DNA from: Methylosinus sporium
GTDB taxonomy: Bacteria > Pseudomonadota > Alphaproteobacteria > Rhizobiales > Beijerinckiaceae
DNA length: 64,000 bases
Assembly: GCF_003113265.1 (NCBI RefSeq)
Contig: NZ_PUIV01000001.1
Location: forward strand, 310,001 to 374,000
Direction: 5' to 3'
Shown here: in pieces, positions 6,226 to 8,782 of the stretch
Position numbering within the stretch: position 1 is the stretch's first letter
Layout of the letters: each line of letters opens with the position of its first letter
Translations under genes and position numbers: made by a program
The notes under the pieces: generated by a model
Told to the model about the DNA's origin: nothing
What the model saw: the letters and a program-made list of their open reading frames with translations, nothing else
Database searches by the model: none

Positions 6226-6693
6226 GTGAACAAGTCGAAACTCCTCGCCTATGTGCTGACCGGCTGGCTCTTCGTCGAGATCGTCGCCTTCGTGCTCGTC
6301 GTGCAATTTCTCGGCGTGCTGGCGGCGGTCGCGCTCGGGGTCGGCACGACGCTGTTGGGACTGGCCGACGTCAAGCGTCTGTTCGTCTATCTGCGCGGCC
6401 GCATCGGACAGCCCCGCGAGGAGCTGAAATCGGGCGTCGCTCTGCTGGACGGAGGGCTCGAGGCGGTCGGCTCGCTGCTGCTGATCCTGCCCGGCTTCGC
6501 CTCCGATCTCGTCGGACTGGCGCTGAAATCGCCGTCGGTGCGCGCCCATGTCGCCGATCGCATTCGCGGTAAGACCGAGCGCAAGGGTCCGCAGACGATC
6601 GATCTTTCGCCCGGCGAATGGAAAGCGATCGTCGATGAAGGCCCCAAGCGCCGCGTCCGCGCGCGGCGCGCGCCATCCGCGAAAGTCGTTTGA
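6226..6693 (+). CDS. fxsA: FxsA family membrane protein
   Basis: 155 residues from GTG 6226, which has GGAGG at 6211-6215. Small inner-membrane protein with hydrophobic segments near residues 8-45 and 75-100, including the FxsA-typical VEIVAFVLV and LLILPGFASDLVGL blocks. In E. coli FxsA relieves exclusion of phage T7 by the F plasmid when overproduced; its normal role is unknown. In related genomes fxsA is followed directly by secB; here about 2.1 kb lies between them. Confidence 0.88.
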   Translation: MNKSKLLAYVLTGWLFVEIVAFVLVVQFLGVLAAVALGVGTTLLGLADVKRLFVYLRGRIGQPREELKSGVALLDGGLEAVGSLLLILPGFASDLVGLALKSPSVRAHVADRIRGKTERKGPQTIDLSPGEWKAIVDEGPKRRVRARRAPSAKVV

Positions 6694-6707
6694 TCGGGTG
6701 AGACGCC

Positions 6708-6748
6708 GCGGCCGTCCGGGCCGGGACAAGCTCGGCCAGGACGGCCGC
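6708..6748. repeat. REP-like palindrome, GGCCGGGACAAG family (degenerate copy)
   Basis: Outer arms GCGGCCGTCC and GGACGGCCGC are exact complements, with GGGCCGGGACAAGCTCGGCCA between them. It shares the GGCCGGGACAAG core with the copy at 20790-20812, so both belong to one dispersed palindrome family. It lies 15 bp after the fxsA stop and could act as a transcript end. Confidence 0.6.
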
Positions 6749-7452
6749 AACGTTTCCGATATGCGCCTCGAGGTAGGACGATCGTCCGGCCGCGCCGAAG
6801 CGCCCGGCGCCTCGCGGCGGCGGGGGGGAGGAGGGGCGTTTCGGGACGCTCCGGCCCCTTTGGCCGCAGCGCTATAAAAATTCTGTCGGTTCCGGAGCAT
6901 CCCGAAACGCGGCTTTGCCTTCTCGTCGACGTCCCGAGGCGCATTCGGACCCGCGAATCCTGGGCTTTCGCATTCAAGATCCGATCGCTTCCGAAGGCTT
7001 GGGCTCACGGAACGGCTCTCGCTCTTCCCTGTGGACGGGAGAGAAACACCGATCCGGCGACGCGCCGCCTGTCCATGGACGGGGGTCGCCGTCCCGGATG
7101 GAGCCGCCCCCGCCCGCGTTCCCTGACCCGAGAAACGCGCCCTTGCGTCAGCGGGAGCGAGGGAGAGATAGGAATATTTTCAGAATGTGTCAAGGGCCGA
7201 CAATGGCGGACGCCGGCGGATCTCTTTTTCCGTTCGAGGGGCGCGAATGCGCACATCCTCCTCGCCCCGGCGTCCTGGCCGGGCTTGTCTACGCCAGCGC
7301 GCACCGAAGCGTGATGGAAGCTTGGCGCAACGCCGAAGCTCCGGCGTCGTCCGAGGTTTCAACTTCGAAGGCGGGGCTTCCAGTGCGCGCGAAACTTGCG
7401 CTTCTGCTCGCCTCCTGTCTTGATGCCAGTCTACACCATGCGAGACATTTCA
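6749..7452. other. About 0.7 kb without a recognisable gene
   Basis: No open frame here has family motifs or a convincing start. There is a small AT-rich patch near 6870-6885 and a second fragment reminiscent of the REP family near 7273-7285. The short overlapping frames on both strands look like composition effects. With the PmoB-like gene downstream, this stretch forms an accessory insert between fxsA and secB. Confidence 0.5.
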
Positions 7453-8496
7453 ATGCGCGCCAAACTAGTTGCAAAGACGTTTTTCCTTCTCACCATCTTT
7501 TTCGGAATTGTCCCGACGACGCCTGGTGACGCGCAAACGTCGAAAGGCTCGGCATTGGCCGACGAACAACAGGTAAAGCAATTCCTTTCTAGCCTGATGT
7601 CCAGCGACGCGGCGGGAAAGATAAAGGTCGTCGTTCGCGACGCCAAATATTCTCCATCGACACACGAGCTCGTCATCGCCTTATCGGTCACCAACGCCGG
7701 TGTGGAAGCGGTGCGCTTCGGGGAACTGGTCGCGGACGGTTTCCGTTTTCTCGACCCGGCGCTTTTCAAGCTCCCTGTGCCCTATCCCGAAAAATTCGTT
7801 GTCCAGTCGGCCAGCCTCGATAACGAGGTTCCGATTTACCCGAGCGGCACGCGGGAGACGACGTTGAAGATCGGCGAGTTCGATCGTCTCCTCCAGAGCA
7901 AACGCAACGCACGTTCCCGCCGAGGCTCCTCGATAAGGATAAACGGATATCTCGCGTTTTTTTCATCCACGGGACGCCGCTACGCCGTCCGCATCGATAA
8001 AGCCGTCGAAACGCCGGCCTCCGAAACAGCGGAGACAGCGCAAGAACAAAAGCTCAAGCGCCAGTTTCTCGACGCGCTCGACCCCGTTCATGCGGCGCCG
8101 GCCATTCAGGCCATCGTCAAGGACGCCGCTTACGACGCGACGGCGAAAACGCTCACGCTCGAATTTCAGGCCCGCAACGTCGGCGACGAAATGGTCAAAT
8201 TCGGGGAACTGATCGTCGACGAACGCCGCTTTCTAAATCCCAGGATCTATACTGCGCCGGTGAGAAACTATCCTCTGCAACTCGTCTACACGTCGGCCGC
8301 GTCTATCGACTCGGATAACGCATTGACGAGCGGAGAAACGAGAGAGGTAAAGCTCGTCGTCTCGGACTTCGACAGCGTTATGAATGCAAGAAAAGACAAG
8401 ATGCCGGCGGCATTAGATGCTTTTCTCGAATTCTGGTCCCCGGTGGGACATCGTTTCGTGACGCGGATCAACGCCAAATTTCGCGCCACCAATTAG
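7453..8496 (+). CDS. Exported protein with two PmoB C-terminal (cupredoxin-like) domains
   Basis: 347 residues. A signal peptide (about 1-27, cleavage after GDA) is followed by two homologous domains at about 57-182 and 218-340. Each has the same order of blocks: KDA-x-Y at the start, a conserved V(R/K)FGEL, RFL(D/N)P, YP, a GTRET/GETRE turn, an acidic FD, and a final [13 protein letters not shown] or [14 protein letters not shown] strand. This series resembles the C-terminal cupredoxin domain of PmoB/AmoB (RLGEF, VRFL, YP, PGET, LFFF..GNR), from memory of that family. The N-terminal copper-site domain of PmoB is absent and histidines are few, so catalysis is not expected; a periplasmic binding or assembly role is speculation. 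Start ATG 7453 is favoured by the signal peptide and a weak GAGAC; ATG 7438 is possible. Confidence 0.7.
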
Positions 8497-8782
8497 GCGA
8501 GGCGATTATCGTGAAGGCAGCGGGTCGGTTGGAACCTCCGCTCCCGGCGCATCGGCGAAATTCGAGCCGAGGCGCTACCCGCCGTCGGATTCCTATGGTT
8601 TCCGGGTGATCGCATCGCGAAGGTGGAACGCCTTTCCGGGAGCCGCTTCTCTTTCACCCGATCGCTCGGCTCGACGGCAAATCCCGTTGTCGCAGGCGAG
8701 GGGACGTGTTAGGCGGGCGCCGTGGCAGGCGCCGCCATTCCGTCGGGCCTGTCGGGAGCCGAAATCGGCAGGGAGTTCGACG

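Follow-up and report, generated by a model that had tools for sequence, protein, structure and literature searches.

The job of the C-terminal domain of PmoB is disputed, the roles proposed for it being those of a copper sponge, a structural support or an array contact, and the domain does not normally occur apart from its membrane complex. A natural soluble, duplicated version would provide a handle on the binding of copper, pMMO or lipid. In the 64,000 nucleotides of Methylosinus sporium DNA that were analysed here (the window), a gene between fxsA and secB raises the question of what such a version might do, and of how it came to lie there. Its product is an exported, soluble protein made of tandem PmoB/AmoB C-terminal beta-sandwiches, with neither a copper-site domain nor a membrane anchor. 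The features of the locus are collected in Table 1.

Table 1. Features of the locus, in window coordinates
Feature	Position	Strand	Basis
Insertion between fxsA and secB, ~1.97 kb, absent from nine Methylosinus relatives	6694..8671		empty-site alignments
10-bp inverted repeat near the insertion ends	6692-6701 GATCGGGTGA; 8654-8663 TCACCCGATC		repeat positions
Multi-copy intergenic element, about 0.4 kb	6765..7210		copies at 74-97% identity in Methylosinus genomes
Short dispersed repeat, REP-like, tens of copies in the genus	7244..7354		repeat search
Exported protein with two PmoB/AmoB C-terminal-type domains (P0001), 347 aa	7453..8496	+	intact ORF; PF04744 E 7.8e-29, two stretches
Predicted Sec signal peptide, residues 1-28, without a lipobox Cys	7453..7536	+	direct sequence reading; hydropathy maximum at residues 5-23
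Half 1, residues 34-189: short helix and PmoB-C sandwich	7552..8019	+	PF04744 alone 55.2 bits, E 8.9e-15, profile 244-376
Half 2, residues 194-347: short helix and PmoB-C sandwich	8032..8493	+	PF04744 alone 49.9 bits, E 3.6e-13, profile 240-374
Right-hand repeat, recurs beyond other cargo genes	8532..8616		L162:1726-1811, L163:4239-4296

One PmoB domain in two copies

Against Pfam, the whole protein matched a single family, PF04744 (Monooxygenase_B), at 101.5 bits, and each half searched separately lay above its gathering cut-off of 22.7 bits. The profile is 380 positions long and the halves match positions 240-376 only, which means that the C-terminal domain of PmoB alone is present, twice. 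The NCBIfam equivalogs for PmoB/AmoB, TIGR03079 and NF041640, were matched at C-terminal positions only, so that their cut-offs were missed (70.7 bits against 394.9 and 104 against 336, respectively). Aligned with each other over 159 columns, the two halves share 34% identity; the repeat unit takes in a short helix-like segment ahead of the sandwich (QVKQFLSSL in half 1). The motif order GE...RFL(N/D)P...YP...GT/ETR...FD...G.R is shared with the PmoB/AmoB C-domain. When the PDB sequences were searched with phmmer, the matches of low E-value were to PmoB/AmoB chains only, the best being residues 261-379 of 3chx_A at 9.5e-10.

The fold was approached with an AlphaFold2 model of half 1, for which half 2 served as the sole other alignment row (pLDDT 71.6, pTM 0.68); a single-sequence model of the whole protein reached a pLDDT of 34 and was discarded. 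The best eight Foldseek matches of the half 1 model were all PmoB/AmoB (E 1.2e-9), and VIA-align gave Z-scores of 10.9-12.2 to PmoB/AmoB, mostly over residues ~270-414, with 2.6-2.9 A over 117-121 residues for the trimmed rows. The next row that was not PmoB had a Z of 8.4, and the remainder graded into unrelated beta-sandwiches. As modelled, half 1 shares the beta-sandwich fold of PmoB residues ~270-414.

Export is predicted from a signal peptide whose hydrophobic core spans residues 5-23, with a plausible cleavage site between GDA and QT; in-frame alternative starts are possible upstream, as far as 7396. No further 19-residue stretch with a mean hydropathy above 1.05 was found in the whole protein, and the two transmembrane helices that PmoB/AmoB has between its soluble domains are absent. 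Also absent is the N-terminal copper-site domain (His33, His137, His139), the PF04744 matches being confined to the C-terminal part of the profile. The protein has no Cys and three His, which are isolated and none of them paired. The first-pass annotation had read the mature protein as one domain repeated behind a signal peptide, with no N-terminal copper domain, had called that domain the PmoB/AmoB C-terminal type, and had proposed a PF04744 search with each half and a structural overlay on the PmoB C-domain; the scores and the model bear it out in each of these respects, and the outcome that it named as refuting, a placement of both domains outside the PmoB/AmoB C-terminal family, did not occur.

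The divergence from PmoB was followed at 40 positions conserved at at least 80% in 44 PmoB C-domains, of which half 1 retains 16 and half 2 retains 14. What both halves keep is the core, namely the Asn of VTN, GE, RF, the Asp after the ETR strand, and the G and R of the last hairpin; what both have lost is the VPGR turn and the C-terminal end (G-P-x-x-F), and the conserved R-L...D.D loop is mostly gone. Glu316, the sole ligand of Cu504 in the structure 7ev9, is retained in both halves (E91 and E252), which says little because nearly all PmoB C-domains have it, and Asp395, the Cu505 ligand in that structure, is Ser in both. The equivalent of E338 is E113 in half 1 and L275 in half 2. Half 1 is basic (pI 9.6), whereas the host PmoB C-domain is acidic (pI about 5). 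Judged by its sequence, the protein contains PmoB domains and yet is not a PmoB; it is a new architecture of a known domain, of which one example was seen.

An insertion among repeats

The claim of the first-pass annotation that the gene interrupts the fxsA-secB pair holds, as both genes (PF04186 and PF02556) flank it here and are adjacent in all nine other Methylosinus genomes, from which the inserted segment is missing. The 347-aa protein gene is the sole recognisable gene of the insertion, in which no transposase gene was noticed, and no match to a sigma-70-type promoter was found upstream of it. The GC content here is 0.55-0.60 against about 0.65 in the surroundings, and the GC3 is 0.68 against 0.73-0.82; these lower values moderately favour a foreign origin. 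An assembly artefact was considered and is unlikely, since the contig is 448 kb long, the gene lies 317 kb into it, and the flanks are syntenic.

Copies of the ~0.4-kb element elsewhere adjoin single accessory genes, mostly defence-like (L158, L160, L162, L163, L170, L171). The neighbours are a TIR and CobT_C protein (G187, G174), a PD-T4-6 kinase and a GmrSD_N/NsnA-like protein in the host itself (G000:C15 and G000:C14), an AAA/OLD-like ATPase (G042) and an unassigned ORF with a GC3 of 0.39 (G146). In two of these loci, L162 and L163, the cargo is bordered on its other side by the right-hand repeat, in the same layout as in the window. The gene thus resembles one cargo of an accessory site bounded by repeats; the protein itself had no match to a PADLOC defence family at E 0.01. 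The element is possibly a non-autonomous cassette, or marks a place between ffh and the ETF-QO gene where insertions recur. Six Methylosinus genomes also have copies, about 81-83% identical to that of the window, ~0.7-2.2 kb downstream of pmoB2 (L157:8712-9115 and its equivalents in G042, G105, G146, G174 and G187). The joining of TIR to a CobT_C (VWA-type) domain is an unusual pairing, present in two Methylosinus genomes (L163:4509-6194, L170:4684-6339).

The gene lies on contig C11 of the host genome and the one assembled pmoB on C22, hence away from pmoCAB. Two other host contigs, C49 (L202, G000:C49:17678-19157) and C55 (L207, G000:C55:10342-10432), match the pmoCAB1 flank from the end of pmoB1 onward, so the host assembly probably lacks one or two pmoCAB1 operons. 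A loss of pmoCAB1 in the host was not concluded, since two identical operons that failed to assemble would be expected to leave this pattern.

Distribution and origin

No second protein with two such C-domains was found in the 10 genomes of the genus, in 39 and 15 genomes of the family's two other methanotroph genera, in 199 genomes of the family, 297 of the order and 398 of the phylum, in 369 genomes of the class of G333, or among the matches listed for 311 genomes of the order of G749 (presumably Methylococcales), these sets overlapping one another. In the last of them, almost all of the matches listed lay in frames of ~410-490 aa, and the scores did not exceed 62.5 bits against the half-1/half-2 model. 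Close relatives were likewise absent from GTDB genome contigs searched by peptide patterns, from IMG/VR searched with the protein, the alignment of the halves and the host PmoB, and from plasmids and phages searched by tblastn, and literature searches found no free-standing PmoB-like proteins. In the genomes searched (for the Methylococcales-type part, among the matches listed), the PF04744 C-domain was confined to B subunits of CuMMO or a direct derivative of one. C-terminal-only matches in genus g18 were considered as stand-alone C-domains and set aside, since the majority are at the end of a contig or close to one and, judged collectively, resemble broken PmoB.

Two further observations concern PmoB itself. 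The C-domain of one pmoB of the relative G128 (L041) is identical, over the stretch compared, to that of 3chx, from M. trichosporium OB3b, and the genus was taken as Methylosinus on this ground. The genome G1118 encodes a natural 339-aa PmoB-like protein (L155:910-1926, contig C73) in which an N-terminal copper-type domain is joined directly to the C-domain, without the transmembrane part; an AMP-binding ligase gene follows it, and the genome has four further PmoB-like genes.

In the tree, the halves are sisters (support 100/99) on a stem of 1.77 changes outside the PmoB sample, which places the tandem duplication within the protein's own lineage. Their best identity to any PmoB is 32-34%, scattered over several PmoB clades, and their distance to all PmoB is much the same. 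With at most about a third of their residues identical to PmoB and a long branch outside it, the halves are not a recent copy of the host pmoB, and a recent duplication of that gene is ruled out by tree and identity together, although the placing of long branches is difficult and calls for caution. Ancient divergence and fast evolution would both fit the long stem and are indistinguishable here. The gene probably came in from outside as cargo instead of arising from a copy of the host pmoB.

Possible functions

The leading mechanism, proposed with low confidence and likelier to be wrong than right, is that the protein is an exported, non-catalytic docking module acting on the periplasmic head of pMMO. 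The two sandwiches would serve as protein-protein docking modules in the periplasm or the lumen of the intracytoplasmic membranes, where they would imitate the PmoB C-domain and bind the head at the PmoB N-domain or at the trimer-trimer contact, and such binding might stabilise, cap or modulate pMMO assemblies. Docking is favoured because the domain is confined to a CuMMO context in the genomes searched and the host has a pmoB, and because the soluble domains of PmoB form the trimer-trimer contacts of pMMO arrays, including one of K60 with E338 (PMC9445010), a residue whose equivalent half 1 keeps. Moreover, archaeal AmoB has no C-domain, and AmoZ was proposed to support the N-domain instead (PMC10030591), which indicates that a separate protein can occupy that position. 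Against docking count the few conserved PmoB-C positions kept, the lost loop and C-terminal end, the basic charge of half 1, the missing promoter match, and a gene that lies away from pmoCAB, a position that gives no support, and that is carried by a single one of the ten Methylosinus genomes; the defence-like cargo of the same repeats points to an accessory function that is exchangeable and not necessarily tied to pMMO. The first-pass annotation had proposed an accessory of methane oxidation that binds PmoB partners or membranes or delivers copper: the binding of PmoB partners survives as this leading mechanism, while the distance from pmoCAB, the absence of the gene from nine sister species, all of them with pMMO, and the defence-linked repeats speak against the wider role.

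About equally probable is that the PmoB-C fold was repurposed as a generic exported binder (for the envelope, a ligand or inter-bacterial contact), unrelated to pMMO and carried as exchangeable cargo. Such a history would fit the loss of most PmoB-specific conserved positions outside the core, the long branch, and the cargo-like insertion with repeats that elsewhere flank a TIR protein, the kinase, a GmrSD_N protein and an OLD-like AAA ATPase; it sits less well with a domain found only alongside CuMMO in the genomes searched and with the lack of a defence-family match, and one sequence is too few to map a conserved surface of its own. Ranked below both, and unlikely, is a selfish or decaying relic without function in this host, as its restriction to a single species, its place among repeats and the missing promoter match might imply; the intact frame of 347 codons, the signal peptide and two halves well above the Pfam cut-off argue the other way. 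Least probable by far is a periplasmic copper store or chaperone, which would draw on two copies of a domain that was named a Cu(I) sponge by Yu et al. 2007 (as cited in PMC6572826) and on the retained Glu316. That residue is near-universal in PmoB C-domains, however, and Asp395 is replaced; native mass spectrometry found no copper in the PmoB C-domain (PMC6572826), quantum refinement left the sponge sites of 7ev9 unsupported (PMC12576850), and the structural matches of half 1 to copper chaperones (Z about 7.6) are indistinct from those to unrelated sandwiches. With no Cys, three isolated His and no copper-site domain, the delivery of copper proposed at first is unsupported and unlikely.

A bolder form of the docking proposal, and a rather improbable one, is that the protein is a horizontally moving exported mimic of the array-forming PmoB C-domain, which would bind pMMO from outside and control its arrays or activity as a trans-acting regulator. 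Should the protein act on pMMO, it would be a mobile protein modulator of methane oxidation.

Comparison with known systems

Engineered soluble PmoB, spmoB, consists of the N- and C-domains of PmoB. The protein described here resembles it in being a soluble derivative of PmoB domains, and differs in having two C-domains and no N-domain, in place of a single C-domain together with the copper-site N-domain. The anchor-less PmoB-like protein of G1118 likewise belongs to PF04744 and lacks a transmembrane part, but it retains an N-terminal domain (residues 39-172, profile 1-134) with its one C-domain. PmoD and the PCuAC proteins PmoF1/PmoF2 are also exported methanotroph accessory proteins, and PCuAC sandwiches reach a Z of about 7.6 to half 1; this is background level, and these proteins bind copper via specific ligands that are absent here. 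AmoZ of the ammonia-oxidising archaea is alike in being a separate protein, proposed to replace the missing C-domain of AmoB (PMC10030591), but it is helical and membrane-anchored, and non-homologous by anything tested here. The closest comparison is that with PmoB/AmoB itself (3chx, 3rgb, 9pxf, 9leg): although the protein has two C-domains, no N-terminal copper domain and no transmembrane helices, is encoded outside pmoCAB, and its halves are about a third identical at most to the PmoB/AmoB C-domain, with the conserved loop and C-terminal end lost, they have in common with that domain (PF04744 ~240-380) the profile, the motif order and, in the model of half 1, the fold.
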